Shown: positions 49,426-64,000 of the stretch, in pieces
Position numbering within the stretch: position 1 is the stretch's first letter
Layout of the letters: every line of letters starts with the position of its first letter
From: an uncultured Flavobacteriaceae bacterium
GTDB taxonomy: Bacteria > Bacteroidota > Bacteroidia > Flavobacteriales > Flavobacteriaceae
Direction of reading: 5' to 3'
DNA: 64,000 bases
Assembly: GCA_943788165.1 (NCBI GenBank)
Contig: CALSPF010000002.1
Coordinates: forward strand, 572,909-636,908
Made by a program: the position numbers and the translations under genes
The notes under the pieces: generated by a model
Databases searched by the model: none
What the model was told of the DNA's origin: nothing
The model's input: only the letters and a program-made list of their open reading frames with translations

Positions 49426-50484
49426 TTAACAAATGCGCGGTAATTGTTCCCCGACTAACATATTTACAATACGTTTGCCACCAATGCTACTGGTTAATAC
49501 TACCTGTCTTGGATGACTCTCAGTAACTTCTCCTATTATAGATGCATTTGTACCGTAGTCCATACGTTGAAGTTTTGTGACAACTTCTTCAGAAATTTGT
49601 ACGTCTACTACGGCAATAAAGATTCCTTCATTCGCTACATACAGTGGGTCTAAACCAAGAATTTCGCATAATGCACTTACTTCATTTTGTATAGGGAGTT
49701 GTTTTTGTGATATTTCGATTCCCAGATTTCTATCTCTAGCAATTTCATTTAAGACTGTTGCAACACCACCTCGTGTCGGGTCTTTAAGTACATGAATATC
49801 TTCGCCGAATTCGTCGAGCAGTTCGGTGACCATATGATTTAAACCTCTGGTATCACTTTTTACAGCGGTTTCAAATTCAAGCCCTTCGCGTACCGACATT
49901 ATGGCTACGCCATGGGTAGCAATACCATCGCTCACAATGATTTTGTCACCAGCTTTAACATTGTGGGTTGAAATCTGAGCGCGCTTATGTATTTTGCCAA
50001 CGCCACTGGTATTTATAAAGATTTTATCTCCTTTTCCTTTTTCAACGACTTTGGTATCGCCAGTCACTATTTGTACATTGGCTTCTTCTGCCGCCGATTT
50101 AATACCGATTAGAATTTCCCAGAACTCGGTCATTTTCAAACCTTCTTCTATGATAAAACTTAATGATAGGTATTGTGGAATCGCTCCACACATGGCCAAA
50201 TCGTTTACGGTGCCATTCACTGCTAATTCTCCGATATTACTATCAGGAAAGAAAATAGGTGATATTACAAAACTATCCGTAGTAAAAGCAGTTTCGCCTT
50301 CTAACTTCAATACTGCTCCATCATGTCGTTGTTGTAAATATTCATTGTCAAAAAGATGAAAAACGCCTGAATCCAGTAATTTGTTGGTCAACAAACCACC
50401 ACTACCATGCCCGAGGGTTATAATATCAAAGTCCAATTCGGGCATGGGACAATGTAATTTCATTTTTAAGTTTTTTTCAGACAT
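49426..50484 (-). CDS. hypE: HypE, carbamoyl dehydratase for hydrogenase maturation
   Basis: HypE dehydrates the carbamoyl group on its C-terminal Cys to a nitrile, giving the CN ligands of the NiFe site. The 352-residue protein is a PurM-like ATP enzyme: ITLGHGSGGLLTNKLL near residue 22, TTDSFVISPIFFPDSNIGEL, NDLAMCGAIP, KDPTRGGVATVLNEIA. It ends in the obligatory PRIC. It lies 18 bases after hypD in the hypF-hypD-hypE operon. Confidence 0.97.
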   Translation of the reverse strand: MSEKNLKMKLHCPMPELDFDIITLGHGSGGLLTNKLLDSGVFHLFDNEYLQQRHDGAVLKLEGETAFTTDSFVISPIFFPDSNIGELAVNGTVNDLAMCGAIPQYLSLSFIIEEGLKMTEFWEILIGIKSAAEEANVQIVTGDTKVVEKGKGDKIFINTSGVGKIHKRAQISTHNVKAGDKIIVSDGIATHGVAIMSVREGLEFETAVKSDTRGLNHMVTELLDEFGEDIHVLKDPTRGGVATVLNEIARDRNLGIEISQKQLPIQNEVSALCEILGLDPLYVANEGIFIAVVDVQISEEVVTKLQRMDYGTNASIIGEVTESHPRQVVLTSSIGGKRIVNMLVGEQLPRIC

Positions 50485-50502: not shown

Positions 50503-51603
50503 TTAGACAATAGTTTCTGCTGCTCCGCTGAAATGATAATATGCAGCACATGCTCCTTCTGAACTAACCATTGGGGCTCCCATTGGATTTTGAGGTGTAC
50601 ATTTTTTACCAAACTGTGAACATTCCATCGGTTTTTTAATTCCTTTCAGAACTAAACCTGCTATGCATTCCTTAGGTTCTTCCACTTTTTTGATGTTGAT
50701 ATTGAATTTCAAATTGGCATCGAATGATGCATACTCTGGTCGTACTTCAAGTCCACTAACAGGAATAGTACCAATACCTCGCCATTCCCTGTCTGAAATC
50801 GTAAAAATCTTACGAAGGAGCTCCTGAGCTTTGTGATTCCCTTCGGGCTTTACCACTCTACTATATTGATTTTCAAGGATTGCTTCTCCCTTTTCTAATT
50901 GTTGAATCGTTAGTAATATGCCCTGCAATAGGTCTACAGGTTCAAAACCTGTGACAACCATTGGAATTTTATAGCGTGTCACCAAAGGATAATATTCATC
51001 CATTCCCATAATAGTGCAGACATGACCTGCAGCCAAAAAAGCATCTATTTTACTTTCTTCGTCCTCGATAACGGCTTCCATGGCTGGTGGCACCAAAACT
51101 TGAGAGGCTAAAATGGAAAAGTTCGTAAGTCCTAAATCATGGGCCTTGTCAACAGAAAGGGCATTCGCAGGAGCTGTAGTCTCAAAACCAACAGCGAAAA
51201 AAACCACTTCTTTGTTGGGATTGTCGTTTGCGATTTGAACGGCTTCCAAAGGAGAATATAAAATACGAACATCAGCGCCAGCGGCTTTAGCCTGTAGCAA
51301 ACTTTTTTCCGAACCTGGAACCCGTAGCATATCTCCAAAAGAACAAAGAATAACGTTTTCATCTTCGGCTAAATAGATTGCTTTATCAATTAAATGGAGT
51401 GGTGTAACACAAACGGGGCACCCTGGCCCATGAATCATTTGGACCTCTTTGGGCAACAAGTCCATAATTCCGTTTTTAACCAGACTATGGGTTTGTCCAC
51501 CACAAACTTCCATAATATTCCAAGGTTGGGTAACAGTAGCATGTATTTCGTCTAAATATTTTTTTGCCAAATCGGCATCTCGGTATTCACTAAGAAATTT
51601 CAT
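50503..51603 (-). CDS. hypD: HypD, Fe(CN)2CO assembly scaffold
   Basis: HypD carries, with HypC, the iron atom on which the CN and CO ligands are assembled. The 366-residue protein has NIMEVCGGQTHSLVKNGI (near residues 30-47), MIHGPGCPVCVTPLHLI (near 60-75) and FFAVGFETTAP. It ends with the [4Fe-4S] cysteine region (KECIAGLVLKG, MECSQFGKKCTPQNPMGAPMVSSEGACAAYY). The start overlaps hypF by 14 bases. Confidence 0.97.
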   Translation of the reverse strand: MKFLSEYRDADLAKKYLDEIHATVTQPWNIMEVCGGQTHSLVKNGIMDLLPKEVQMIHGPGCPVCVTPLHLIDKAIYLAEDENVILCSFGDMLRVPGSEKSLLQAKAAGADVRILYSPLEAVQIANDNPNKEVVFFAVGFETTAPANALSVDKAHDLGLTNFSILASQVLVPPAMEAVIEDEESKIDAFLAAGHVCTIMGMDEYYPLVTRYKIPMVVTGFEPVDLLQGILLTIQQLEKGEAILENQYSRVVKPEGNHKAQELLRKIFTISDREWRGIGTIPVSGLEVRPEYASFDANLKFNINIKKVEEPKECIAGLVLKGIKKPMECSQFGKKCTPQNPMGAPMVSSEGACAAYYHFSGAAETIV

Positions 51604-53890
51604 CTTTGTTTGTAGTTTGGTAAAATGCTAATTGCCCTAGTGCAATGTTCTCATCGTTAGGTGATACTTCTTCATGAAAATAGAGTTGAAAATTGGGTTC
51701 CAAATGCAACTGCATTAAATCAACTAACAGCGCATTCTGAAAAACACCTCCACTAAAAGTTACTTTTTTAATACTTTTTAAGCGAGCAATTTTGTCAACT
51801 ATCTTCACCAGAGAGTAGTGAAATTTAAAGGCAATCTGATTTAAATCCATACCACTTTTTAAATCCTTCACTACACCTATAATAATATCGCCCGTAGGCA
51901 GATTTTCAATATACGATATTTTTGAAACATAATATGTTTCATCTATAATTTCACTTTGGTCAACATAAGTTTGCGCTAAAGACTCTAGTTTTAAAGCGGC
52001 CTCTCCTTCATAAGTTTGTACATCCATTATTCCTAATAGGCATGCCACGGCGTCAAATAGTCGACCCATGCTCGATGTTTTTAAAAACTGTCCTTTATTA
52101 AGTGTTTTTTGATATAATAACCATTCTTGTTCAGTGAACTTTCCTCTTATCATTTCTGTCGCCGTATCATTTTTCCAACAATGTACCAAGGCGGAAATGC
52201 GAGGCTCTAAAGACATTTTATCACCCAAAATAGATGGTACATAGGATAAATGTAACAGACGGGTAAAAGTGCTGTTTTCATACGTCAAAAATTCTCCGCC
52301 CCAATTATTTCCATCATTTCCGAATCCTGTGCCATCCCATATAATTCCTAAGACCTTTTCCGGTTTTGTCAATAACGAGTGTTCAGATAAAACACTGGCA
52401 AAATGAGCAAAATGGTGTTGAATGGACACAAGCTTTGCACCATATTCATCTGTTAAATATTTTCCATATTCGGTAGAATGATAGTTTGGGTGTTTATCGA
52501 CCAAAATAACATTGGGTCGACAGTTTAGTAAATTCATGAAATGATCAATAGTCCTTTTATAGTTCTCTGCACTTTCAAAATAAACGAGATTACCTAAATA
52601 CTGGCTTAGATAGAATAATTCTTTGTAAAGTACACCGAAGACACTTTTTTGAGAGGCTCCCATTGCTAGAATTACCTCTTCTCTTTCATTGGAAACTGGC
52701 CCGAAATAATTGGGAGATAAACCTCTTGACCTTCGAATAAGTATTCGCTGTTTTTTTAATTGACTAAAGCGAACAACACTATCATCTTGAGACGTTACTA
52801 TTTCACGGTCATTCGTAAGAACGTAATCCCAAATACCCGATAATTCAGAAAAGACCTTATCGTCTTCAAAAACAATAGAGGCATTACTAATATTTCCACT
52901 TGTCGCTATAATAGGTTTACCGAAACTTTGCATCAAAAGTTCATAGAGTGGGGTATAGGGCAACATGACGCCAATCTGGTCAAGATTAGGGGCTACTTCG
53001 TGTTCGGCAATATTAGCTTGGTTGTTCTTTAATTTAAACAAGACGATAGGAGCCACTTCACCCAACAGCATTTTGATTTCTGAAGGATCCGTTTGAAATT
53101 CTTGTTGTATCAATTCAATATTGGGGTACATACAAGCAAAAGGTTTTGAAGGTCTTTGTTTTCTTTTTCTCAGCGTATTTATTACTTTACTATTGGTCGC
53201 ATCACAGGTTAGTAAATATCCACCAATACCTTTAATTACAACAATTTTTCCCTCATGCCAAAAATCGACAACTTTATTAATGATTTCTTTTGTGTCATTC
53301 ACAATTTCTTCTCCTTGTGGGTCTTTTAAAGATAATTTGATTCCGCAAGTAGTACAGGAATTAGTTTGAGAATGGTATCTACGATTTTCAGGGTTGGTAT
53401 ACTCTTCTTTACAAGTTACACACATTTTAAATTCATCCATAACGGTGAATTCTCTTTCAAATGGCAGACCGTTAATCAAAGAAAAGCGCGGACCACATGA
53501 AGTGCAGGTAATGAAGGGATATAGTAACCTTCTATTATCATGGGATAAAACTTCTGCTCTGCAGTTTTCGCATAAAGCAAAATCAGGCGTTAACATCAAT
53601 GCAGTAGTCTTGGCCTCCTGATTTTGTAAAATTTGAAAACCTTCATAAATTTGATTGTCAATTTCCAGAATGGAATGTTTGGTGATTTTTGCTAGACTAG
53701 GGGCATCGCTAAGGACGGTCTTATAAAAAGGAATTGCTGTTTCTTTCTTGGCTGTAAATTTAATATGAACACCATTAAGGTCGTTGTAAACAACCCCGTT
53801 TAGTTGTTTTTTAGACGCCAATCGATAGATATTAGGACGAAAACCTACTCCCTGAACCCTTCCTTGAATGTGGATATGCCAAGTATTCAT
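51590..53890 (-). CDS. hypF: HypF, carbamoyltransferase for hydrogenase maturation
   Basis: HypF makes the thiocarboxamide on HypE from carbamoyl phosphate and ATP. The 766-residue protein has an acylphosphatase domain (about 1-90; IHIQGRVQGVGFRPNIYRLA) and two zinc-finger units (CENCRAEVL, CTSCGPRF, CVTCKEEY, CTTCG). A YrdC domain (about 200-390; KRKQRPSKPFACMYPNIE, ATSGNISNASI) and a Kae1-like domain with His-rich motif (VSIQHHFAHFASVL, GIIWDGTGFGNDG, KVTFSGGVFQN) follow. The ATG at 53890 is preferred to a TTG at 53899. It is the first gene of hypF-hypD-hypE. Confidence 0.96.
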   Translation of the reverse strand: MNTWHIHIQGRVQGVGFRPNIYRLASKKQLNGVVYNDLNGVHIKFTAKKETAIPFYKTVLSDAPSLAKITKHSILEIDNQIYEGFQILQNQEAKTTALMLTPDFALCENCRAEVLSHDNRRLLYPFITCTSCGPRFSLINGLPFEREFTVMDEFKMCVTCKEEYTNPENRRYHSQTNSCTTCGIKLSLKDPQGEEIVNDTKEIINKVVDFWHEGKIVVIKGIGGYLLTCDATNSKVINTLRKRKQRPSKPFACMYPNIELIQQEFQTDPSEIKMLLGEVAPIVLFKLKNNQANIAEHEVAPNLDQIGVMLPYTPLYELLMQSFGKPIIATSGNISNASIVFEDDKVFSELSGIWDYVLTNDREIVTSQDDSVVRFSQLKKQRILIRRSRGLSPNYFGPVSNEREEVILAMGASQKSVFGVLYKELFYLSQYLGNLVYFESAENYKRTIDHFMNLLNCRPNVILVDKHPNYHSTEYGKYLTDEYGAKLVSIQHHFAHFASVLSEHSLLTKPEKVLGIIWDGTGFGNDGNNWGGEFLTYENSTFTRLLHLSYVPSILGDKMSLEPRISALVHCWKNDTATEMIRGKFTEQEWLLYQKTLNKGQFLKTSSMGRLFDAVACLLGIMDVQTYEGEAALKLESLAQTYVDQSEIIDETYYVSKISYIENLPTGDIIIGVVKDLKSGMDLNQIAFKFHYSLVKIVDKIARLKSIKKVTFSGGVFQNALLVDLMQLHLEPNFQLYFHEEVSPNDENIALGQLAFYQTTNKDEIS

Positions 53891-54030
53891 AAGTGGCAAT
53901 ATAAGTAATTATCCTACGATGGTTATTCTATTTTATTCATCTAATGAGAAGAATTAATCATAAGCATATCAAATAGAACAAATTAGAATCAAATAAAAAG
54001 GGACCAATTCGGTGAGTAGGGAAGGAGTGT

Positions 54031-54392: not shown

Positions 54393-55547
54393 ATGACAAA
54401 GAATCTATCTATACCTTTTCAAGGCCCTATATCTAACGTTTTTGACGTAGTTCACGCCTTTTGGATTGCAGGAGGCAGTTGTGACGGCTGTTCTATTGCT
54501 ACTGTTGGTGCAACAAGCCCATCAGTTGAAAACCTTCTTAATGGAACGATACCCGGAGCAGCAAAAGTAATTTTGCATCACCCTGTATTGGCCGTTAATG
54601 CTGGGGAAGAATTTATGAAACCTTTTCGATTGGCAGCCAAAGGAGAATTGGGTGCTCCGTTTGTAGTTCTATGTGAAGGTTCAATTATGGACGAAGGCAT
54701 GGCCGCAGAGACCGGAGGTTATTGGTCTGGACTAGGAGCTGATGAAGATGACAATGGAGATCCACAGCCCATACCTTCCTCGAGTTGGGTGACGAGAATG
54801 TCAGAACATGCCGCGGCTGTTGTTGCGGTAGGTACATGTGCAACATGGGGAGGAATCCCTGCTGCTGCAAATAACCCTACGAATTCAGCAAGCGTAATGG
54901 ATTTACTAGGCGAAGATTATCGAAGTACTTTGGGGCTTCCTGTAGTTAATATTCCAGGTTGCGCTCCACAAGGAGATAATATTACCGAGACTATTGTATC
55001 TGTATTAATGTTTTTAAACGGGTTGACACCCTTGCCAGAATTTGATGAATTAGGTCGTCCGTCTTGGTTGTTTGATGAAACCGTGCATAGAGGATGTACT
55101 AGAGCAGGGTTTTACGAAGAAGGTAATTTTGCCGAAGAACATGGAGATAAGGAATGCCTTGTTGAAGTAGGTTGTTGGGGTCCAGTTGTACAATGTAATA
55201 TTAATAAGAGAGGAGCGATTAACCATGTTGGAGGATGCATGAATGTTGGCGCACCCTGTATAGGATGTACGATGCCCGGTTTTCCTGATAGTTTTGCTCC
55301 ATTTTATAAAACCCCTCCAGGAACAATGGTTTCTTCTAATATTTCTAGAGTAACTGGAACCGTTATTCGTAATTTGAGGGAAATGTCAATGAATAATCTA
55401 AATAGAACCGCTAAATGGGACAAAGATGGTCATGTTCCTTCAGGATGGGGTCATGTTAGAGAACCTAATATGATAAAGAAAGTGGTAAAATATGCGTATC
55501 AAAAAATGCAATTTAGTGATAGCCCTAAACCTGGTTCTAAAAAATAA
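54393..55547 (+). CDS. [NiFe]-hydrogenase small subunit, no Tat signal
   Basis: This 384-residue electron-transfer subunit of an uptake-type NiFe hydrogenase begins directly in the flavodoxin-like domain, without a twin-arginine signal. The proximal cluster ligands are C30, C33 (GSCDGCS), C149 (GTCATWGG) and C190 (PGCAPQ). Distal ligands are H232, C235, C255 and C261. The medial cluster region has C268, C282, C289 and C292. C282 lies seven residues before the PCIGC cysteine, where Pro stands in enzymes with a [3Fe-4S] cluster, so a medial [4Fe-4S] is expected. The six-Cys proximal site of oxygen-tolerant membrane-bound enzymes is absent. It may belong to group 1l or a relative; a classifier is needed. 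The large subunit lies five small genes downstream. Confidence 0.95.
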   Translation: MTKNLSIPFQGPISNVFDVVHAFWIAGGSCDGCSIATVGATSPSVENLLNGTIPGAAKVILHHPVLAVNAGEEFMKPFRLAAKGELGAPFVVLCEGSIMDEGMAAETGGYWSGLGADEDDNGDPQPIPSSSWVTRMSEHAAAVVAVGTCATWGGIPAAANNPTNSASVMDLLGEDYRSTLGLPVVNIPGCAPQGDNITETIVSVLMFLNGLTPLPEFDELGRPSWLFDETVHRGCTRAGFYEEGNFAEEHGDKECLVEVGCWGPVVQCNINKRGAINHVGGCMNVGAPCIGCTMPGFPDSFAPFYKTPPGTMVSSNISRVTGTVIRNLREMSMNNLNRTAKWDKDGHVPSGWGHVREPNMIKKVVKYAYQKMQFSDSPKPGSKK

Positions 55548-55555
55548 TTACTGAT

Positions 55556-55831
55556 ATGGAGAATGAAGCACTTTTTAATGAATGGTTAATTGGACTTGTA
55601 TTAGTCTCGTTAATTATAGTGATTGCCGCAGTACTTTTGATTTTAGTATTCTTGGCAGCAAAGCGAATCTTAAGATTGGCCGGAGCTGCATTAGAAATAG
55701 TAACTCAGATAAAAAATAACACGAATGCCATATGGGAATTGGAGACTACCAATAAGGTAGCCGTAGATATTCAAAATGAAGCAGAAGCTATTGAAGCACA
55801 TGCCACACTAGTAGCGGAAGCATTAGAATAA
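55556..55831 (+). CDS. Small hydrogenase-linked membrane protein 1
   Basis: This 91-residue protein has one long hydrophobic helix at residues 10-34 (WLIGLVLVSLIIVIAAVLLI) and a basic stop (AAKRILRL). The rest is a soluble amphipathic helix with an acidic end (TNKVAVDIQNEAEAIEAHAT). There is no signal peptide cleavage site and no Cys. It lies 8 bases after the hydrogenase small subunit. The positive charges after the helix place the C-terminal part in the cytoplasm. I do not recognise a named family. Position suggests a membrane tether or quinone-side partner of the hydrogenase. Confidence 0.75.
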   Translation: MENEALFNEWLIGLVLVSLIIVIAAVLLILVFLAAKRILRLAGAALEIVTQIKNNTNAIWELETTNKVAVDIQNEAEAIEAHATLVAEALE

Positions 55832-55846
55832 TAATAAATAAAGAGT

Positions 55847-56164
55847 ATGAGTACAGGAATACAATTATGGATACTATCATTAGTCATTGGCTTGGTAGTT
55901 ATTGGTGTCGTAGCATTTCTTCTCAATTTAGTAAAGAAAACTGCTGTTAAGATTGATGAAACTGCAGCAGATATATGGACTCAAGGAAAATTGACGGCAA
56001 ACAACACTATCCACATCCCTTTGTTTTTAACCAAAACAAATCAAGTGGCAGGCAAAATATTAAAATCCGCTGTTGCTATTGTTGGTGGCTCTAAGGCAAT
56101 TACACAACATATAGAAGGTTGTCCTGGATGTCCTCATTGTATACTGCAAAACTCTAAAAATTAA
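55847..56164 (+). CDS. Small hydrogenase-linked membrane protein 2, with C-terminal CxxCxxC
   Basis: This 105-residue protein has an N-terminal helix (residues 6-28; LWILSLVIGLVVIGVVAFLL) followed by KK, so the C-terminus faces the cytoplasm. The middle is amphipathic (TTNQ-like and VAGKILKSAVAIVGGSKAI). Near the C-terminus lies HIEGCPGCPHCILQNSKN, a CxxCxxC motif found in none of the other four small proteins. It could bind a metal or an iron-sulfur cluster, possibly as an electron relay or in assembly. It is 15 bases after protein 1 and 5 bases before protein 3. Confidence 0.75.
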   Translation: MSTGIQLWILSLVIGLVVIGVVAFLLNLVKKTAVKIDETAADIWTQGKLTANNTIHIPLFLTKTNQVAGKILKSAVAIVGGSKAITQHIEGCPGCPHCILQNSKN

Positions 56165-56169
56165 AGTAT

Positions 56170-56460
56170 ATGAGTGTTATATTAATAATTGTTACCATTT
56201 TAGCTGTACTTCTTTTAGTGTATGTTCTGGTACATTATCTTAGAGCGATTATCAAATTACTTACTAGTATTGGAGGAAATGGTTCAAGCTATTTAGCTAA
56301 ATTAAGATTAGGCCTCAGGGCAATCGAGACTGAAACCGGACACTTACCCGTTCAAGTTACCAAACTGAATGGTGGTTTGACCGAAGTGGCTGGAGGACTT
56401 AAAATAGTGGATGACCAATTGGAGGCATCAATAAATGCAGCTTTAAAACAAAATGTATAA
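56170..56460 (+). CDS. Small hydrogenase-linked membrane protein 3
   Basis: This 96-residue protein has a helix at residues 2-25 (VILIIVTILAVLLLVYVLVH), then RAIIKLL. A soluble part follows that is rich in Gly, Leu and Thr (KLRLGLRAIETETGHLPVQV, then TKLNGGLTEVAGGLKIVDDQL) and resembles the soluble part of protein 5, with repeated GGL and xVDxxL patterns. It is in the same operon; the stop overlaps or adjoins the next start. No family recognised. Confidence 0.75.
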   Translation: MSVILIIVTILAVLLLVYVLVHYLRAIIKLLTSIGGNGSSYLAKLRLGLRAIETETGHLPVQVTKLNGGLTEVAGGLKIVDDQLEASINAALKQNV

Positions 56461-56461
56461 T

Positions 56462-56752
56462 ATGGATATTGTAAACATCTTATGGTTGGTTTTATTAATA
56501 GTAACAGTACTTGTGTTACCATATCTTATCCATTTGTTACATAAAACATGGCTCGCTTCGAAATCAATTGAACGGTATTTTAAGGAAATGAAAGAAGCAG
56601 GTATCGGAGTGGCAGGGAATACAGAACATGTGAAGGCTTTGGATGATACCATAGGTGTCGCTTCTGGTATTCTAAAAGTGGCCGGATCTATCAATGAGAA
56701 TGCCGATACATTAAAAACAGCTTTGGCTACACGGGCAGAAAAAATAAACTAA
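56462..56752 (+). CDS. Small hydrogenase-linked membrane protein 4
   Basis: This 96-residue protein (start at the ATG 56462; an ATG at 56453 would overlap the previous gene by 8 bases) has a helix at residues 3-24 (VNILWLVLLIVTVLVLPYLI). An amphipathic part follows (VKALDDTIGVASGILKVAGS) with a Lys-rich end. The design is the same as its neighbours: one membrane helix and one long amphipathic segment with heptad-like spacing. No Cys. Function inferred only from operon position. Confidence 0.72.
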   Translation: MDIVNILWLVLLIVTVLVLPYLIHLLHKTWLASKSIERYFKEMKEAGIGVAGNTEHVKALDDTIGVASGILKVAGSINENADTLKTALATRAEKIN

Positions 56753-56757
56753 ATTTC

Positions 56758-57033
56758 ATGAATTCATCAACTCTTTTTATAGCTACCATTATCATAGTTG
56801 CACTTCTAGTGTTGGTATTAGTTGTATATTTAGTACTTATAATAATTGCACTCAGAAGAGCTGGTACTCATTTAAAAGGTTTGGCAGGAGGATTACAAAA
56901 AACACAAGATGATACAGGACCTTTGGGAGAAAAAGTGGGTGTCATCAATGGTGCATTGCAACAACTACATGGAGGACTATCTTCGGTGGATTCTCATTTA
57001 GTTGCTATAGCCAAAGTCTTAAAATTAGTCTAA
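56758..57033 (+). CDS. Small hydrogenase-linked membrane protein 5
   Basis: This 91-residue protein has a long hydrophobic helix (residues 6-31; FIATIIIVALLVLVLVVYLV), then RRAGTHLKGL. The soluble part is Gly/Leu-rich (GVINGALQQLHGGLSSVDSH) and is similar in pattern to protein 3, so the five are probably diverged copies of one ancestral gene. It starts 5 bases after protein 4 and lies 25 bases before the hydrogenase large subunit. Confidence 0.75.
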   Translation: MNSSTLFIATIIIVALLVLVLVVYLVLIIIALRRAGTHLKGLAGGLQKTQDDTGPLGEKVGVINGALQQLHGGLSSVDSHLVAIAKVLKLV

Positions 57034-57058: not shown

Positions 57059-58933
57059 ATGTGTTTTAAAAATTTACCGATTGCATTTGATGAAGAAGGA
57101 AACGCTTATTTAAAAGAGGGTCTTGCTGACCCCTATGAGCATAAAGTAGTTGATCTTGGAGAAGAACAAGAGGTGCTTAAAGGTTTGCTCGAACGTAACG
57201 GATTTATTAGAAATATCGATTATGATCCTGTGACTCGAGTTGCTGGAGCTTTGGCTTTTCATAGTGTGGTGGATTTAGAAAAAAAGAAGGTACTGTCAAC
57301 AAATTCAATGGCTACGCTTTTTCGTGGTTATGAAGTTATTTTAAAAGGAAGAGATCCGAGGGATGCAGCTTATATTAGCAGTAGAGCCTGTGGAGTATGT
57401 GGAGGTGTTCACGCTACAACAGCTGCCTTAGCTATTGAAATGGCATTGGAGATTAAACCGCCACCATTGGGCATTGTTATGCGTAATATTTTATTGGCTA
57501 TTGAATACATGTACGATCACCCGTTGCACTTATTCTTGTTGGCAGGTCCAGATTATTCGGAAGAATTGGTTCGGGAGACGAATCCAGAACTTATAGATAA
57601 GGCAGCAACAACAAAAGCAAAGAATAAGGATGTTCATGGGTACGATACCGTATTGGATATCATGAAAGATTTGAACCCGCTAAAAGGTAAATTATACCTT
57701 GAGGCATTGACTATGACTCGTGTTGCTCGAGAAGCATACGTTTTAATTGGAGGTAAATACCCTCATCCTCAGTCTGTTGTACCAGGAGGACTTTCGGTTA
57801 CAGTAAATGCTTCTATGCTTAATGAAGTTTATAGTAGATTGATTAAGTTTTTCGACTATAGTCAGAAGGTTACAGGCATATGGGATGATGTTTTTGATTT
57901 TTTCTTAGAGAGTAATCCTGAATATGCGAAGTGCGGTATACGTCCGGCGACTATGATGGATACTGGAGTTTGGGACAGGCCAGACCATTACGATGCAAAA
58001 TTTGAGAATTGTGATACCTGGGGAGAGGCAAGATGGTCGACTCCTGGAGTTTTGGTGGATGGTGAAGTGGTCACTACAAAACTTACCGAATTGAACGCTG
58101 GAATGGAAGAATTTGTTGAACATTCCTATTATGAAAAATGGGATGGACATCGTTTTAAAGAAGATCCAAATGGAATGCCATTGAGTCCGAATCATCCTTG
58201 GAACAAGGAAACCATTCCGAAACCAGGAAAGCAAAGTTGGAAAGATCGTTATAGTTGGGATACAGCTCCTACTTGGGACAGAATGCCGATGGAAGCAGGG
58301 GCATACACCAGAATGTACATGACAGCAAAGGCCCAAAAAGCTCCGGCAAGTAAATTTTTAGAAAACACAGGTACGAGTATGAAAATTCATGTACCGAAAC
58401 ATCTTCTCCCAGAAAAAACCTTGGAATGGAAAATTCCTGAGCATTGGAATGCTTTTGAACGTAACCGAGCAAGAGCGTATTGTATACCTTATTCGGCCAT
58501 GGTTGCCATGGAAAATTGGATGATGGCTATGGATCTAATCAAAAACGGCGATACTAAAGTTAGTGTGCCTTACGAAATTCCTAAAAAAGGAACACATATC
58601 GGATTTGGTGCATGGGGTGCTGGTAGAGGTTTCCTTACCCACCACCTTATAATCGAGAATGGGCTTATTGAAAATTATCAAATCATTACACCTTCTACAT
58701 TGAATGCAGCACCAAGGACTCCTTGGGGAGAAATGGGCCCTTATGAAGAAGCAGTACTAAACACACCTATCCTTGAAAAATTCGATAAACCTGAAGACTA
58801 TAAGGGAATAGATATTTTGAGGGCCATACGAAGTTTCGACCCTTGTATGCCATGTACTACACATATCATGGCGAAGGATAGCGACCATATGGTAACACGG
58901 GAAGTAACAACCTGTGCTTGTGGAGTTGAATAA
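57059..58933 (+). CDS. [NiFe]-hydrogenase large (catalytic) subunit
   Basis: This 624-residue catalytic subunit carries the nickel-iron site. The L1 motif is RACGVCGGVHATTA (C111, C114, H118) and the L2 motif is DPCMPCTTH (C596, C599, H602), so all four Cys ligands are present. VTRVAGALAFH near residue 60 is also typical. A 22-residue C-terminal extension after H602 contains an extra Cys-Ala-Cys and should be cut off by the maturation protease after nickel insertion. It starts with ATG at 57059, 25 bases after small protein 5. The end overlaps the start region of the next gene. Confidence 0.96.
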   Translation: MCFKNLPIAFDEEGNAYLKEGLADPYEHKVVDLGEEQEVLKGLLERNGFIRNIDYDPVTRVAGALAFHSVVDLEKKKVLSTNSMATLFRGYEVILKGRDPRDAAYISSRACGVCGGVHATTAALAIEMALEIKPPPLGIVMRNILLAIEYMYDHPLHLFLLAGPDYSEELVRETNPELIDKAATTKAKNKDVHGYDTVLDIMKDLNPLKGKLYLEALTMTRVAREAYVLIGGKYPHPQSVVPGGLSVTVNASMLNEVYSRLIKFFDYSQKVTGIWDDVFDFFLESNPEYAKCGIRPATMMDTGVWDRPDHYDAKFENCDTWGEARWSTPGVLVDGEVVTTKLTELNAGMEEFVEHSYYEKWDGHRFKEDPNGMPLSPNHPWNKETIPKPGKQSWKDRYSWDTAPTWDRMPMEAGAYTRMYMTAKAQKAPASKFLENTGTSMKIHVPKHLLPEKTLEWKIPEHWNAFERNRARAYCIPYSAMVAMENWMMAMDLIKNGDTKVSVPYEIPKKGTHIGFGAWGAGRGFLTHHLIIENGLIENYQIITPSTLNAAPRTPWGEMGPYEEAVLNTPILEKFDKPEDYKGIDILRAIRSFDPCMPCTTHIMAKDSDHMVTREVTTCACGVE

Positions 58934-59474
58934 AAATGTTCTTATTGGTACAGTAGGTTATCATTTACTTAGTAACCATTCAGTTGGTCCAATTCTGCTA
59001 CCTCAGATTCAATCTATTTCATGGAATGGTTCTGTTACTGTCGAAGAAATGAATTGGGGTCCTATCGCGATCGTTCAATATTTTCAGACCCTAGAAAAAC
59101 CTTTTGATAAAGTAATATTTTTGGTAGCCATTGAAAGACCTGAAAGAAAAATTGGAGATATTTCGGTTTTTCAGTGGATGGGGCACTTACCTTCTGAAAA
59201 ACAAATTCAAGCCTGTGTTGGCGATGCCGCGACCGGGGTGATTTCTGTAGAAAATCTTTTGGTGATAGGCGAGCATTTCAAAATTTGGCCCAAAGAAGTT
59301 TTTTTAGTAGATGTTGAACCTGGAGCTGAGCTAGCAGGTGAACACCTAACAGCTGAAGTTGATGCAAAAATTCCTGAAATTTTACGTATATTGGAAGATT
59401 TAGGACAGAAACCAACTATTGTTTTAGAAACTAAAAAACTAAGAGGAGATACCTTATTTGAAGAAAGTTTATGA
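58926..59474 (+). CDS. Hydrogenase maturation-protease-like protein (HyaD-fold), probably non-catalytic
   Basis: This protein of about 182 residues has the hydrogenase maturation endopeptidase layout (NVLIGTVGYHLLSNHSVGPI; DKVIFLVAIERPERKIGDIS; VFLVDVEPGAELAGEHLTAE). However, the usual opening GxGNxxxxDD is replaced by GTVGYHLLSNHS, so the Glu/Asp that senses nickel is not conserved. The start is uncertain: GTG 58914, GTG 58920 and TTG 58926 are all in frame and overlap the end of the large subunit. I chose TTG 58926 because MNKNVLIGT resembles the usual beginning. It probably acts as a chaperone beside the complete protease at 60981. Confidence 0.65.
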   Translation: MNKNVLIGTVGYHLLSNHSVGPILLPQIQSISWNGSVTVEEMNWGPIAIVQYFQTLEKPFDKVIFLVAIERPERKIGDISVFQWMGHLPSEKQIQACVGDAATGVISVENLLVIGEHFKIWPKEVFLVDVEPGAELAGEHLTAEVDAKIPEILRILEDLGQKPTIVLETKKLRGDTLFEESL

Positions 59475-59869
59475 AAAATGAAACGATAGAAGATAGTGCA
59501 TTGCGTTCTTTATTTTGGAAGGATGAAATTCTTCAAGTGCTCTACTGGATGCATGGTGAAGGTATGGGTAGTGAAGTAAGCCTACCCCAAATGCTTCCTT
59601 TTTTGAATACTTCTTATCAAAATTTAGAGTATCACCTCCATAAAATAACGGAAGCAGGATTATTACTAACATTAGACAAAAACGGAACCACTCATTATAA
59701 ATTTTCTGAATCGGGTAGGAAAGAGGGAGGTCGACAATTTGCTGAAGCTTTTCAAGGGATGCAAAAAGCAGGTCATGGAGAATGTGGTCCTGATTGTGAA
59801 TTTTGTTATGGTACTGACGGGGTAAAGCTTGAAAACTGTGTCCATAACTGCGCCAGCGATCCCCATTAA
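59471..59869 (+). CDS. Winged-helix protein with C-terminal cysteine cluster
   Basis: This 132-residue protein has an N-terminal winged-helix-like part (DEILQVLYWMHGEGMGSEVS; YQNLEYHLHKITEAGLLLTL; THYKFSESGRKEG). It ends in a cysteine-rich tail (GHGECGPDCEFCYGTDGVKL, then ENCVHNC), five Cys in 23 residues. It overlaps the previous gene by ATGA. The likely roles are a redox- or metal-sensing regulator of the hydrogenase operon, or a cluster-carrying accessory protein; the sequence does not decide between them. Confidence 0.65.
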   Translation: MKNETIEDSALRSLFWKDEILQVLYWMHGEGMGSEVSLPQMLPFLNTSYQNLEYHLHKITEAGLLLTLDKNGTTHYKFSESGRKEGGRQFAEAFQGMQKAGHGECGPDCEFCYGTDGVKLENCVHNCASDPH

Positions 59870-59870
59870 T

Positions 59871-60164
59871 ATGAAACCTGTACTATTCAATAACATCGAG
59901 TTCAAAGAAATTATGGAGTATGTCCAAGAACTAGTGAAACAAACTGAAAAAATTCCCGATAAGGAAACTAAAGAGCTCACTGAAGAGATTTTGAAGTATT
60001 TCGATTTATTGCATCGTGAGCCACTGTCAAGAATTCTTCAGGCCATTGAACGCAGTTATCCTGATTTAAAAGATACCTTAAAACAAGATTATACTATAAA
60101 TAAACTATTAGAGCTTTATGATTTTGAAAACACCAACTTTCAGAATATTTCAAAAAAATCCTAG
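59871..60164 (+). CDS. Small helical hydrogenase-cluster protein, unknown function
   Basis: This 97-residue acidic, helix-rich protein (MKPVLFNNIEFKEIMEYVQE; DKETKELTEEILKYFDLLHR; PLSRILQAIERSYPDLKDTL) has no membrane helix and no Cys. The ATG at 59871, 1 base after the previous stop, is preferred to a start at 59829 inside that gene. It shows the pattern of small helical accessory proteins (some fused to NifU-like domains) found in other hydrogenase operons, but I cannot assign it. Its 3' end overlaps the lipoprotein gene by 47 bases. Confidence 0.6.
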   Translation: MKPVLFNNIEFKEIMEYVQELVKQTEKIPDKETKELTEEILKYFDLLHREPLSRILQAIERSYPDLKDTLKQDYTINKLLELYDFENTNFQNISKKS

Positions 60165-60975
60165 TTTCTCACTTATGCTATTAATTGGTATCCTGAGCAT
60201 TGGATGCAAAGGTGACCATAAAAAAGATAATGTAGAGGTACAAATAGAGGCTTCCGATTCCAATTTGAGCGAAGCTCAGAAATTAGTCAATAAAACCATA
60301 ACTCATTATGGTGGAATGAAAAATTGGGAATCCAAGAAAAGCTTATCTTATGTGAAAACGATTCAAAGTTATGATTCCATGGGAGGCCTAATTCGCACAG
60401 TGGCCCAATCACATAAATATCAGTTAAAACCTTCCTTCAAAGCAAATATGAGTTGGGAGCAAGATGGAAACAAACATGAAATAGTCAATAATGGTAATCA
60501 ATCATGGAAACTGGTCAATGGAAAAATTCAGGAAGACAAAGCTTCAGTGGATAACGCATGGAACTCTTCTTTTGGTTCTCATTATATGGTGAGTATGCCT
60601 TTTAAACTGAAAGATCCCGGAACTATTCTAAACTATGAGGGTGTAGATACCTTATCAAACAATAGAATAGTACATAAGCTCAAGGTTGATTATGAGAAGG
60701 GAGCTGGAAGCTGTGGAGGAATGCATACTTGGAATTATTTTTTGAATACGGATACCTATCAATTTGAGGCCAACTTTTTAGATCATGGCGAAGGATACTC
60801 CTATACTGATTATGAAACCTTTATTCAAATTGACAGTATATTGGTAACAAAGGAAAGAAAATTGTATGCTTCAAATAAAAATATGGAGTTGACGTATCTC
60901 AAAACCCAATATAGCAATTCAGATATTCAATTTGATGTAGAATTGCCTGAAGAACTATTTAAAGTTAACAACTAG
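60118..60975 (+). CDS. Lipoprotein of the hydrogenase cluster (DUF6503-like)
   Basis: This 285-residue protein has an N-terminal signal and lipobox (LMLLIGILSIGCKG, Cys about residue 30). The mature domain resembles LolA or outer-membrane sorting folds (GGMKNWESKKSLSYVKTIQS; YMVSMPFKLKDPGTILNYEG). The segment MPFKLKD and flanking pattern recur in the membrane protein at 61569-62552, so the two are paralogues. Start choice: the ATG at 60118 supplies the basic residues of a signal peptide but overlaps the previous gene by 47 bases; the ATG at 60175 avoids overlap but leaves a short uncharged signal. The role in hydrogenase function is not known. Confidence 0.7.
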   Translation: MILKTPTFRIFQKNPSFSLMLLIGILSIGCKGDHKKDNVEVQIEASDSNLSEAQKLVNKTITHYGGMKNWESKKSLSYVKTIQSYDSMGGLIRTVAQSHKYQLKPSFKANMSWEQDGNKHEIVNNGNQSWKLVNGKIQEDKASVDNAWNSSFGSHYMVSMPFKLKDPGTILNYEGVDTLSNNRIVHKLKVDYEKGAGSCGGMHTWNYFLNTDTYQFEANFLDHGEGYSYTDYETFIQIDSILVTKERKLYASNKNMELTYLKTQYSNSDIQFDVELPEELFKVNN

Positions 60976-60980
60976 ATTTT

Positions 60981-61499
60981 TTGACTACAATTCTAAAAAA
61001 AATCCTCATTGCAGGAGTTGGAAACGAACTAAAGCAAGATGATGCGTTTGGTATCGAATTCGCTAAAAAGTTTCGAAATAATGTCTCACATTTAAACCAT
61101 ATCATGGTTATGGAAGTGGGTATCGGAGGTATTCATTTAGTACAAGAATTGCACGCGGGATATGATATCTTGGTTCTAGTAGATGCAGTGGCGTGGGGGG
61201 AGGAAGCAGGACATATTTATTTTCGAGAAATGGAGAAAGTTTCTGATATAGAGGAAATGCCTGTTTTTGAAAAAAGGACTTTTCTTGCAGATATGCATTA
61301 TACAAACCCTATTAGAGCGTTGATGCTAGCCAAGGCATTGAAGGTCTTACCCAAAGAGGTATATATCTTGGGTTGTGAGGCCGCCGAACATGATGATTTT
61401 GCCATTGGAATGACTGATGTAGTTGAAAATGCAATACCTAAAGCAATCGTTCGATTGAAAAACTGGTTGAGTACAAAACAACTGGCGTCTTTTGAATAA
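60981..61499 (+). CDS. Hydrogenase maturation endopeptidase (HyaD/HycI family)
   Basis: This 172-residue protease removes the C-terminal peptide of the large subunit after nickel insertion. The opening ILIAGVGNELKQDDAFGIEF carries the GxGNxxxxDD nickel-sensing acid, VDAVAWGEEAGHIYF gives the second conserved acid region, and ADMHYTNPIRALMLAKAL resembles the family His segment. TTG at 60981 is the only plausible start. It lies 5 bases after the lipoprotein gene and is the penultimate gene of the plus-strand operon. Confidence 0.88.
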   Translation: MTTILKKILIAGVGNELKQDDAFGIEFAKKFRNNVSHLNHIMVMEVGIGGIHLVQELHAGYDILVLVDAVAWGEEAGHIYFREMEKVSDIEEMPVFEKRTFLADMHYTNPIRALMLAKALKVLPKEVYILGCEAAEHDDFAIGMTDVVENAIPKAIVRLKNWLSTKQLASFE

Positions 61500-61542: not shown

Positions 61543-61550
61543 TAACTTTG
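61543..61550 (+). promoter_or_regulatory. Bacteroidota-type -7 element before the membrane-anchored DUF6503-like gene
   Basis: TAACTTTG is a perfect TAnnTTTG box 18 bases before the ATG at 61569. It suggests an internal promoter giving this gene its own transcript. A -33 TTTG is not seen at the usual spacing. Confidence 0.4.
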
Positions 61551-61568
61551 TACGATAACCATCATATT

Positions 61569-62552
61569 ATGAATCAGGACATTAAGCCAACTAAGAGCCC
61601 TAAAAAAATAGAGAAACATTCAGAGGAAGAAATTCCTTGGTGGCATAATTTAAATGTAAAAGATTTAGTAAACCCCATTAAAATAAGACGTGTACAAATA
61701 TTGTCTGCAGGAGTATTTTTACTTGCGCTCATTGTTGGAGGTATGTACGTTTGGGAAAACTATCTAAGAGAGCCAACAGGAGCTGAATTTGTAGATGAGA
61801 TTGTTGATGCTGCTGGTGGCCTTGATACTTGGTATGGCATTGAAAACGGACAGTTTACACGAACTCATAATTTATATGATGATTCCGGAGAATTGTTAAA
61901 AGCTAGCAAAGAGACTTTTTATTTTAAAAGAGGGGAAGAGGGTCTAAAACTACAAGTGAAATCGGTTGGAAGTGACAATAGTGAAGTAGTGGTTGGAAAG
62001 GATGATGAAGGTTTTTGGGCAACAAAAGATAGTCAAGCGGTTGACCCAAGAGAGGCGGCCGAGGATGAGGGCATGATGTGCGATTCTCAATTTTGCGACC
62101 CTCAATGTGCATCTACAATGGCATTCTTTAGATTTTCAATGCCTTTTAAACTAAAAGATAATGGGGTGAATGCTAGTCTAGCTTCAACAGGGTTCAATAT
62201 TGCAGAGTTGAATTTTTTGGGAGGTTCTGGAAAAGAACCAACGTTACTCGATATATCTTATGACCCTAAGGTAGGAAAGGATAAATGGCGATTTTATGTA
62301 GACCCTCAAGATAAATTAATTCACAAAGTTGAATATTATAACAAGTCCGATAAAGGAGAAACTCGCCCTGAAGAAATCTATTGGACAGACCACAAAACTG
62401 TCGATGGCATTACCTTTAGCCACCGTTGGACGAGGTATTGGCCTAATGGTAAAGTCATGGATGAATATGTGTATTCAGACGTGAATTTAGATAATGAATT
62501 GCAAGATGAATTTTTTAATAGAAGTAATTCATCGGTCGTTGCAAATAGATAA
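61569..62552 (+). CDS. Membrane-anchored protein with LolA-like domain (DUF6503-like paralogue)
   Basis: This 327-residue protein has a cytoplasmic N-terminal tail (residues 1-45, Lys-rich), one membrane helix (about 46-66; VQILSAGVFLLALIVGGMYV) and a large domain on the far side of the membrane. That domain shares FFRFSMPFKLKDNGVNA with the lipoprotein at 60118 and adds a Cys segment (GMMCDSQFCDPQCASTMAFF). It is the last gene of the plus-strand hydrogenase operon and converges on cooC with 7 bases between stops. The lipoprotein/anchored pair suggests periplasmic handling of a lipid or metal, but this is inference. Confidence 0.72.
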   Translation: MNQDIKPTKSPKKIEKHSEEEIPWWHNLNVKDLVNPIKIRRVQILSAGVFLLALIVGGMYVWENYLREPTGAEFVDEIVDAAGGLDTWYGIENGQFTRTHNLYDDSGELLKASKETFYFKRGEEGLKLQVKSVGSDNSEVVVGKDDEGFWATKDSQAVDPREAAEDEGMMCDSQFCDPQCASTMAFFRFSMPFKLKDNGVNASLASTGFNIAELNFLGGSGKEPTLLDISYDPKVGKDKWRFYVDPQDKLIHKVEYYNKSDKGETRPEEIYWTDHKTVDGITFSHRWTRYWPNGKVMDEYVYSDVNLDNELQDEFFNRSNSSVVANR

Positions 62553-62559
62553 ATATTGT

Positions 62560-63330
62560 TTATTCTGCTAATATAGAATCGCGCAATTTTTCTAAAGCTT
62601 TTACAACTTTGGCTTTAGGGTTATAATCCATAACGGATTTTCCTATTAAGTCTGCCGCCATTACTTCTTCGTCAAATGGAACAAATACGGCAATTGGAAG
62701 GTTGATTTTAGCGCAGTACTCTCGTATTGCCATTTCATCTTCTTTGGTGCGTACCTTATTGGCAATTGCCTCTACTTTACCAATACCTAATTGTTCTGCC
62801 ATTTCGGCAAATCGGGAAGCCGCCTCTAGAGATCTGTAGTAGGGCTCAACAACCGTATAGATTTTATCTACGTATTTAGACGTTCCTCGTTTCATATGCT
62901 CTAAAGATGCTTCCGTATCCAAGACCATAATTCGCCCATGTTCTGAAGATAGTGCTGAATTTACCAATTCGCGAACGACGGTATGTGAACCACACATGCA
63001 TCCTGTACCTGCCTTTTCTGGTTTACCGATCATAAGTAAGGTTACATTATCTGTTGCCTTTTGCCCGTAGGTTTCCAATACTTCTTGAAAAGGAATCTTT
63101 ACTTGAAATTTCCATTTACCATCTCCAATCTCTACTCTTTCGATGATGTCGGTGCTTAAATTTGGTGGACCTTTGTCTGACTTGTCAACACCTAAAACAA
63201 TGGAAAGGTTAGGATTGGGATCACCATCAATGGCGAGAACTTCATCCCCTTTGGCACCAAAAATCCGGCAAAGTGTTCCGCTAATAGTAGTTTTGCCAAC
63301 ACCTCCCTTACCTGCTATTGCTATTTTCAT
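62560..63330 (-). CDS. cooC: CooC-like nickel-handling ATPase
   Basis: This 256-residue MinD/CooC-type P-loop ATPase has a deviant Walker A GKGGVGKTT (residues 7-15), an Asp switch (VLAIDGDPNPNL) and the CxC metal site C111-M-C113 in TGCMCGSHTVVRE. A second ATPase motif is MVLDTEASLEHM. CooC inserts nickel into CO dehydrogenase, where the CxC pair binds nickel at the dimer interface. No CODH gene is present here. Placed beside hypC in a hydrogenase locus with no hypA or hypB in view, it may deliver nickel to the hydrogenase. It is 21 bases downstream of hypC on the same strand. Confidence 0.82.
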   Translation of the reverse strand: MKIAIAGKGGVGKTTISGTLCRIFGAKGDEVLAIDGDPNPNLSIVLGVDKSDKGPPNLSTDIIERVEIGDGKWKFQVKIPFQEVLETYGQKATDNVTLLMIGKPEKAGTGCMCGSHTVVRELVNSALSSEHGRIMVLDTEASLEHMKRGTSKYVDKIYTVVEPYYRSLEAASRFAEMAEQLGIGKVEAIANKVRTKEDEMAIREYCAKINLPIAVFVPFDEEVMAADLIGKSVMDYNPKAKVVKALEKLRDSILAE

Positions 63331-63351: not shown

Positions 63352-63609
63352 TTATTCATCATCAGGCCTAATATCATCAAGTTCATCAGTTCCAAGTAGA
63401 AAATCCATTGTGCGTTTTGCTTCTTCCTCATCAACTACACTCATAGCAACGCCGACATGTACTAATACATAATCACCTTCTTTAGCTTCAGGCACCAGTC
63501 CTAGATTGATTTTTTTTATAATCCCATCAAATGAAACCTTGCCTATTTTGAATACACTTTCTCTAGTATCATCAAAGCCTATAATTTTCCCTGGTACGGC
63601 TAAACACAT
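63352..63609 (-). CDS. hypC: HypC, hydrogenase maturation chaperone
   Basis: This 85-residue protein starts MCLAVPGKIIGFDD. The second-position Cys, freed after Met removal, is the iron-binding ligand of HypC. GDYVLVHVGVAMSVVDEEEA is the second family segment, and an acidic C-terminus follows. HypC carries Fe(CN)2CO from HypD to the large subunit. The ATG at 63609 is certain because it places the Cys at position 2; a longer reading from 63663 would mask it. cooC follows 21 bases downstream. Confidence 0.93.
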   Translation of the reverse strand: MCLAVPGKIIGFDDTRESVFKIGKVSFDGIIKKINLGLVPEAKEGDYVLVHVGVAMSVVDEEEAKRTMDFLLGTDELDDIRPDDE

Positions 63610-63625
63610 AAATACAAATTTAAGT

Positions 63626-64000
63626 TTAAGTAAACTTACGAAAATCCAGTGAGACGGATTCATCTAAATAAAATTTTAGTTGCGGGAGGATTACGGCTTC
63701 AAATTCCATCCAACCCTCTTTTGTAAGTAGAGGAATCAATTGATTCCAAATAAATTCTTTGAAATGGCCTTCACCAATATCGGTTTTACCGCGCACCTGT
63801 CGTTGGGTAAGCCAGAACGTAATAATCAACCAAATTGATTCGGCGGTATGCAAGTATTGTGCGTCTAATTGTTCAGACTTAATAATACCTTTCTCAGAAT
63901 TTAGTCGCAACCATTCCTCTATCTGTACAATCATTTTCTCCAAATAGGTTACACGTTTTGCATGCATTTTTGGATAAGCTCTTTCCATTTCAAGTAGGTC
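63626..64000 (-). CDS. TetR-like regulator, C-terminal part (runs off the window)
   Basis: The frame is open to the right edge and reads DLLEMERAYPKMHAKRVTYL, then EKMIVQIEEWLRLNSEKGII, then HTAESIWLIITFWLTQR, ending in LDESVSLDFRKFT. The layout matches the ligand-binding half of a TetR-type regulator common in Bacteroidota (a hydrophobic helix with xxYPKxxxxR, then a helical bundle). The DNA-binding domain lies outside the window. It is 16 bases upstream of hypC on the same strand, so it may control the hypC-cooC genes. Confidence 0.5.
   Translation of the reverse strand, partial: DLLEMERAYPKMHAKRVTYLEKMIVQIEEWLRLNSEKGIIKSEQLDAQYLHTAESIWLIITFWLTQRQVRGKTDIGEGHFKEFIWNQLIPLLTKEGWMEFEAVILPQLKFYLDESVSLDFRKFT

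Follow-up and report, generated by a model that had tools for sequence, protein, structure and literature searches.

A flavobacterial group 1l [NiFe]-hydrogenase operon with HylTM membrane proteins of two types and their counterparts in group 1m-like loci

Group 1l [NiFe]-hydrogenases are published with five short transmembrane (TM) genes, "HylTM1-5", located between the genes for the small (S) and large (L) subunits (Ray 2022, PMC9561532, which cites Ortiz 2021). We analyzed a locus of this kind in a 64,000-nucleotide stretch of DNA, here called the window, from an uncultured Flavobacteriaceae bacterium (assembly GCA_943788165.1, contig CALSPF010000002.1). Like published group 1l, the locus places five short TM genes between S and L and lacks a Tat-like motif, and its large subunit belongs to the clade of the Hymenobacter roseosalivarius enzyme. 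We found no essential difference from group 1l; the window represents a Flavobacteriaceae member. Thus, the architecture is not poorly described, as a first-pass annotation of the sequence had thought possible, because HylTM1-5 are already in print. The analysis adds that the TM proteins form two paralogous types, A and B, and that the set also occurs in loci resembling those of the sister group 1m.

The available text of Ray 2022 (PMC9561532) mentions two small TM proteins for group 1m and makes no link to HylTM. The literature searched likewise contained no link between 1m proteins and HylTM, and the supplement of Ray 2022 and Ortiz 2021 lay outside that search. Group 1l is reported in marine Bacteroidota, and in one study strains of Robiginitalea and Marinovum that carry 1l genes showed no substantial H2 consumption (PMC10305171). 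For two aerobic high-affinity hydrogenases, the group 1h enzyme Hhy and, at that time, Huc, one report described the path of electrons from trace H2 into respiration as unresolved (PMC6883350). Group 1h is said to need an unknown membrane partner, and membrane association of the Methylacidiphilum 1h enzyme is tied to high apparent affinity, possibly via such a partner (PMC7174314, available portion). Huc of Mycobacterium smegmatis (group 2a) is shown or modelled on a helical coiled-coil stalk with a quinone acceptor (PMC10017518, in part), and a HucM-like protein has been modelled for archaeal Hys (PMC11018855, in part). Reports on Huc (PMC10792529, in part) together with the Hys model therefore indicate that the stalk and quinone principle exists.

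The small subunit of the window matches chain A of 5AA5, the group 1h C. necator enzyme and the closest solved structure by sequence, with an E-value of 2e-104. The large subunit includes RACGVCGG and DPCMPCTTH, then a conserved V(T/N)TCxC close to the C-terminus. The genes for the small subunit, TM1 to TM5 and the large subunit lie head to tail on the forward strand with intergenic gaps of at most 25 bases, and the TM3 and TM4 reading frames overlap by 8 bases; judged from relatives, the true TM4 start may be the internal ATG at 56462. These coordinates agree with the earlier statement that five single-helix genes separate the S and L genes. None of the five TM proteins reaches a Pfam gathering score. 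The 2.18-Mb host genome has a single large-subunit match, and the closest named record (L001), a Flavobacteriaceae metagenome-assembled genome (MAG), shares 99% small-subunit identity with the window.

In a large-subunit tree built by a quick method, the window groups with Maribacter, Flagellimonas and Hymenobacter roseosalivarius, which we take to be a reference group 1l organism, and 1h sequences are far outside (L041 was omitted as too short, and L054 is tagged 'split' with its upstream part missing). The 1h, 1m-like and four-TM groups are separate branches with Shimodaira-Hasegawa-like approximate likelihood-ratio (SH-aLRT) values of 100, 100 and 99, and the tree leaves the order among 1m, four-TM and 1l without resolution. 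Because of the grouping with H. roseosalivarius and the published five-TM layout, the locus is assigned to group 1l, as the first-pass annotation had guessed. Group 1m has adjacent S and L genes with TM genes on the opposite strand, whereas S and L are separated in the window.

HylTM proteins fall into type A (TM1, TM2 and TM4) and type B (TM3 and TM5). This division was obtained by using hhalign on profiles of the soluble parts alone, with the membrane helix removed, and 20 column shuffles per pair as a control. The E-values, which are those of single comparisons and not of database searches, are 2.7e-9 for the B-B pair TM3-TM5, and 4.9e-8, 8.7e-6 and 1.6e-4 for the A-A pairs TM1-TM4, TM2-TM4 and TM1-TM2, whereas all A-B pairs have E-values of 0.023 or weaker. 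Within-type scores are 23.8 to 50, in comparison with 9.67 for the best shuffled control. Some A-B pairs nonetheless score above their own controls (TM3-TM4, 11.9 versus 7.6; TM1-TM5, slightly, 9.5 versus 8.8), and a remote kinship of the two types is conceivable. The TM3-TM5 value bears out the earlier suggestion of a diverged tandem family in which these two proteins are alike, and TM1, TM2 and TM4 make up a second family that had been overlooked.

Topology was analyzed in 65 proteins, five each from the window and 12 loci (the near-identical L001 was omitted, and L010 is outside the set). A second membrane segment is found in none of the 65. Lys and Arg residues total 14 on the N-terminal side of the helix and 141 in the 15 residues after it, which predicts a cytoplasmic location for the soluble part. 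In all five TMs, hydrophobicity averaged over the columns of the soluble part has a helical period of 3.40 to 3.54 residues (p of about 0.001 or lower by column shuffling; the scan began at 3.4, and shorter periods lie outside it), and the same periodicity occurs in the nine 1m and Chloroflexota TM classes tested (p of about 0.01 or lower). This amphipathic period is near the 3.5 residues of coiled coils, and coiled-coil assembly is here a prediction only. Hydrophobic moments computed per sequence are weak (mean z of 0.64 to 1.52), with a clear signal only after column averaging. Topology and periodicity thus uphold the reading of each protein as one N-terminal helix, basic residues and an amphipathic cytoplasmic segment. 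The DUF948 model (Pfam PF06103), which TM5 weakly resembles, matches 11 of 14 TM5 members at E<=0.01, and the TM5 protein of the window scores 20.5 bits, under the gathering score of 37.2.

A scan of genome contigs gave 45 loci with small-subunit relatives. The S-five TMs-L arrangement is found in 14, which span Bacteroidota, Pseudomonadota, SAR324, Rhodothermaceae, Chloroflexota and Thermomicrobiales, among others, so the presence of the same five-gene insert in several phyla is not explained by chance. Four TM genes (A, B, A, B) lie between S and L in four loci, all Chloroflexota, and two (A, B) in one locus, L044; the contig of L012 is cut after TM3. In 21 loci, S and L lie side by side and the TM homologues are encoded on the other strand, and L040 has a small subunit and opposite-strand TM genes on a contig that does not include the large subunit. 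No TM gene was found in the other three loci (L026, L032 and L039), whose stretches end at or just past the small subunit. Because the per-TM models were made from the window and 13 of the 14 five-TM loci (L010 was omitted), matches to those sequences are built in; loci of the four-TM, two-TM and opposite-strand kinds did not contribute to the models. Conservation and synteny, proposed earlier as a check, are seen in these 14 loci, and an absence of the genes from related loci, which the first-pass annotation had named as evidence against its idea, is not found for group 1l but is found for group 1h.

The TM set is also linked to hydrogenases in whole genomes, which supports the link to the enzyme that had been drawn from the window alone. 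Among 299 Flavobacteriaceae genomes, the TM3 model and the large subunit are each found in two, which are the identical two, and one is the window's own. Among 396 genomes of the phylum of an Amycolatopsis genome, TM3 is found in 25 and the large subunit in 54. Large-subunit identity in this set is bimodal, at least 51% in 20 genomes and only 39 to 43% (1h-like) in 34. Of the 20 genomes with a 1l/1m-like large subunit, 19 have TM3, in comparison with 2 of the 34 whose large subunit is 1h-like only and 4 of the 342 without a large subunit (Fisher p 2.9e-26 for the 1l/1m-like class versus the rest; p 0.09 for 1h-only genomes versus those without a large subunit). These classes were drawn after inspecting the identities, and the 19 include the centre genome, which had been selected because it carries the locus. 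In G649, the sole 1l/1m-like genome without TM3, the large-subunit gene sits at the beginning of a 3-kb contig. Six TM-positive genomes have no 1l/1m-like large subunit. In L050, L051 and L052, a small-subunit gene adjoins the TM genes on short contigs, and L052 stems from a 1h-only genome. Another, L055, is a TM3-model match consisting of a lone DUF948-like gene (a label assigned in this analysis) in an unrelated gene context.

Counterparts of all five TM classes are present in actinobacterial loci resembling published group 1m. The Amycolatopsis marina locus (L022) encodes a tetratricopeptide repeat protein, a NifU protein, a CbiA/NifH-like ATPase, a HycI protease and a biotin-ligase-like protein (a weak match, under the gathering score), and therefore fits the genes that Ray 2022 lists for group 1m, although DUF1059, also on that list, is not among the 14 L022 proteins scanned. 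These marker genes were checked in L022 only, and the other 20 adjacent-gene loci are assigned by layout and tree. An assignment of the actinobacterial loci to 1h was dropped, because classical 1h loci are without TM genes and L022 has the 1m-listed genes. Groups 1m and 1l are related clades that share the TM1-5 classes, the small-subunit tail and C33 described below, and the V(T/N)TCxC large-subunit end.

In L022, the TM genes are on the opposite strand, three upstream (u1 to u3) and two downstream (d1 and d2) of the structural genes. When the 1m-like TM genes are grouped by position, u1, u2, u3, d1 and d2 match best to TM1, TM2, TM3, TM4 and TM5, respectively, with best versus next scores of 86 versus 49, 92 versus 52, 107 versus 86, 79 versus 52 and 68 versus 45; these scores are from full-length profiles, and the membrane helix raises all of them. 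Elsewhere the classes are harder to tell apart: TM5 outscores TM3 for some B genes of the Thermoleophilia type, the first upstream TM gene of L043 is assigned to TM5, and the Chloroflexota gene c2 is a near tie (82 versus 78). Each class occurs once, in the 3+2 split, in 5 of the 21 adjacent-gene loci (L020, L022, L024, L027 and L037), and several others have TM1-TM4-TM2-B clustered together, with some stretches cut. More than one TM set surrounds a single hydrogenase locus in L028, L035 and L036, from Solirubrobacteraceae/Thermoleophilaceae MAGs.

No TM homologue was detected at E<0.01 in any of 15 group 1h loci, of which 10.6 to 31 kb each was searched. These are the C. necator, Methylocystis and Embleya plasmid loci and 12 further 1h-like loci, which come from the 34 1h-only genomes and were hand-picked, mostly for room around the gene. 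The structural subunits of 1h also differ from those of the window. Position C33 of the small subunit, which together with C30 belongs to the proximal-cluster motif CDGC of the window, is Cys in 46 of 46 1l/1m rows. In 5AA5 and in all 15 1h rows this residue is Asp, and the clades may thus differ in redox properties. H63 is His in 46 of 46 1l/1m rows and in 0 of 15 1h rows, and H278 is His in 43 of 48 1l/1m rows and Gly in all 15 of 1h. The C-terminal tail, residues 346 to 384 in the window, was compared in one alignment of 64 rows (49 1l/1m, of which 46 reach residue 331, and 15 1h). A P[STN]x[WF] motif is found in 43 of these 46 rows versus 0 of 15 for 1h; the rows that lack it are L009, with a long tail carrying TSGW, and L026 and L039, which are cut by the stretch end. 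The 1h small subunits stop 10 to 19 residues past position 345, in comparison with a median tail of 58 residues in 1l/1m. C33, H63 and the tail thus accompany the TM set, and all 15 1h loci are without them.

A further difference lies at the large-subunit end. All 17 aligned 1l/1m rows have DPCMPCTTH and then V(T/N)TCxC, whose two Cys are invariant, whereas 15 of 15 1h rows have DPCLPCGVH without those Cys. The peptide after DPCMPCTTH is normally removed in maturation, and the conserved V(T/N)TCxC peptide may have a role of its own. A Tat-like RRxF[LIVMF] motif near the small-subunit N-terminus occurs in none of the 64 rows (61 cover residue 30), which supports the earlier statement that the small subunit lacks a Tat signal and that the dimer is cytoplasmic.

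By these comparisons, the HylTM set comprises two types, has soluble helices that are amphipathic and coiled-coil-like and are predicted to face the cytoplasm, and travels with the 1l/1m clade and not with 1h. We propose that HylTM1-5 would be dedicated membrane subunits that form a hetero-oligomeric stalk through bundled helices. The stalk would dock the cytoplasmic SL dimer via the small-subunit C-terminal tail, which is proposed as the docking site because it is found in TM-set enzymes and not in 1h. Quinone, not electrons, would travel through or along the stalk and be reduced at the small-subunit distal cluster; this is suggested because the proteins are without haem ligands and universal Fe-S ligands. 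The helix segments contain His in 2 of the 65 TM proteins and Cys in none, and a haem relay of the kind in cytochrome b-type membrane subunits was therefore rejected as unlikely. A CPGCPxC motif at the C-terminus of TM2, found in rows of Bacteroidota, Pseudomonadota, SAR324 and Rhodothermaceae, was rejected as a general relay site, because it is missing from the Chloroflexota-type rows L011, L016 and L041; it may at most be a lineage-specific feature. Hence, the earlier idea that the five proteins pass electrons has no obvious means.

The HylTM proposal resembles Huc in its helical coiled-coil stalk with a quinone acceptor, and amphipathic helices are found in all five proteins. However, a single gene encodes HucM, which is described as a peripheral tetramer, whereas HylTM comes from five genes and a transmembrane helix is predicted in every one of the products. 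The comparison with HucM, as first suggested, also finds no sequence match. The five HylTM profiles hit no hydrogenase chain at E<=1 in a set that has Huc small-subunit entries and in which the HucM chain is unchecked, and the matches that were obtained, with E-values down to 2e-5, are designed or repetitive coiled coils, immunoglobulin-binding protein constructs and similar entries, taken to reflect composition. A relation in fold only is conceivable, and HucM would be at most an analogue.

Linkage, topology and analogy are the grounds for assigning a function to the TM set. The HylTM proteins likely anchor the dimer at the membrane, and the analogy with Huc suggests, more tentatively, that they could serve as a quinone conduit. 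On balance we consider it fairly probable that the group 1l operon has a HylTM stalk that anchors the dimer and brings quinone to it, in a manner like that of HucM but without being HucM. The broader proposal, that the A/B family common to 1l and 1m is an integral hetero-oligomeric quinone conduit on the small-subunit tail that evolved independently of HucM, with A,B,A,B and A,B versions in Chloroflexota, is possible, and we advance it with reserve.

Several observations weigh against a stalk of this kind. The number of TM genes between S and L drops to four in the four Chloroflexota loci and to two in L044, and L018 and L019 have only TM1-TM3 in 17 kb; therefore, a stalk of strictly five parts is not a general feature. 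In L039, the small-subunit gene has no TM gene within 8 kb upstream. On the stretches examined, L053, with five TM genes, and L056, with three and from a 1h-only genome, lack a hydrogenase; contig breaks, or a stalk that serves another enzyme, may account for this. The TM1-TM2 pair has a single-pair probability of just 24%, and AlphaFold2 monomers of TM2 and TM3 are helical at low confidence (mean predicted local distance difference test scores of 67.6 and 67.7, respectively; predicted template modelling score of 0.33). Also, the Methylacidiphilum 1h enzyme is membrane-associated and its operon has two hypothetical membrane proteins (PMC7174314, available portion). Finally, H105, C108, C112, C115 and C126 of the protein at 59471-59869, a winged-helix-like protein encoded downstream of the large subunit, are kept in 30-31 of 31 homologues, 1m-like loci included. 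This conservation is consistent with an alternative in which the TM proteins serve only as an anchor or scaffold for the dimer and electrons exit by a soluble or peripheral carrier to a quinone reductase, the carrier being, for example, this Cys-rich protein or another Fe-S protein. A putative Fe-S protein of M. smegmatis, HhyE, is reported, in the accessible part of the source, to be required for H2 consumption by Hhy (PMC6883350). However, the weak winged-helix match suggests regulation, and no quinone reductase match was found among the cluster genes scanned, so we regard this alternative as rather unlikely.

The variation from two to five TM genes between S and L, and the position of the 1m-like TM genes outside the S-L pair, would also fit membrane assembly or insertion factors that are not subunits of the mature enzyme. 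The tight linkage to the structural genes, the location of the 1l TM genes inside the S-L pair and the association with the small-subunit tail argue against such factors, which we consider improbable. Apart from the unusual position, nothing points to an insertion of five genes that have no relation to the hydrogenase. That explanation is refuted by synteny and co-occurrence, given that the same five-gene insert is present in 14 of 45 loci in several phyla and that the genes co-occur in the sets of 299 and 396 genomes, and its probability is negligible. The stalk is the preferred explanation.

Table 1. Features of the hydrogenase cluster, with positions in the window
Feature	Position	Strand	Remarks
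HypE	49426..50484	-	TIGR02124 above cut-off
HypD	50503..51603	-	TIGR00075 above cut-off
HypF	51590..53899	-	TIGR00143 above cut-off
[NiFe]-hydrogenase small subunit, HylS-like	54393..55547	+	384 aa; Pfam PF14720 and PF01058
HylTM1, type A, single helix, C-terminus predicted cytoplasmic	55556..55831	+	91 aa
HylTM2, type A, C-terminal CPGCPxC motif	55847..56164	+	105 aa
HylTM3, type B	56170..56460	+	96 aa
HylTM4, type A	56453..56752	+	99 aa; start may be 56462
HylTM5, type B, weakly DUF948-like	56758..57033	+	91 aa
[NiFe]-hydrogenase large subunit, HylL-like	57059..58933	+	624 aa; Pfam PF00374
Divergent maturation-protease-like protein	58914..59474	+	TIGR00072 E 8e-6, below cut-off
Winged-helix-like protein (weak Pfam match)	59471..59869	+	Conserved H105, C108, C112, C115, C126
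Small conserved cluster protein, no assigned role	59829..60164	+	Homologues in most 1l loci
Hydrogenase maturation protease	60981..61499	+	Pfam PF01750; TIGR00072 above cut-off
CbiA/NifH-like P-loop ATPase, CooC-type by analogy	62560..63330	-	Pfam CbiA, Fer4_NifH
HypC/HupF chaperone	63352..63663	-	–

The divergent maturation-protease-like protein is encoded immediately downstream of the large subunit, and 1l loci, as well as most 1m-like ones, have homologues downstream of theirs. The winged-helix-like protein contains an HxxCxxxCxxC...C stretch and occurs alongside 1l and many 1m-like loci; it is possibly a metal-sensing regulator or an electron carrier. Two DUF6503-like proteins (60118-60975 and 61548-62552) lie within the cluster on either side of the maturation protease. 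An IS6 family transposase is encoded at 46529-47191, close to the hyp genes, and the large subunit, TM3 and HypD were not found in a genome of the same genus (G099); on the basis of these two observations, the hydrogenase cluster may have been gained or lost as an island. A plasmid search with the DNA as query gave a single 102-base match, within the small-subunit gene, and the plasmid search with TM3 gave no match.

HylTM would be a membrane partner, of the kind that 1h enzymes are said to need, for groups 1l and 1m and not for the 1h loci examined. The outcome is a common candidate set for two related clades, in which the electron-transfer question is directly testable. The A and B pair of L044 would be a minimal version that is easy to express, and the small-subunit tail is a predicted docking site for the stalk.

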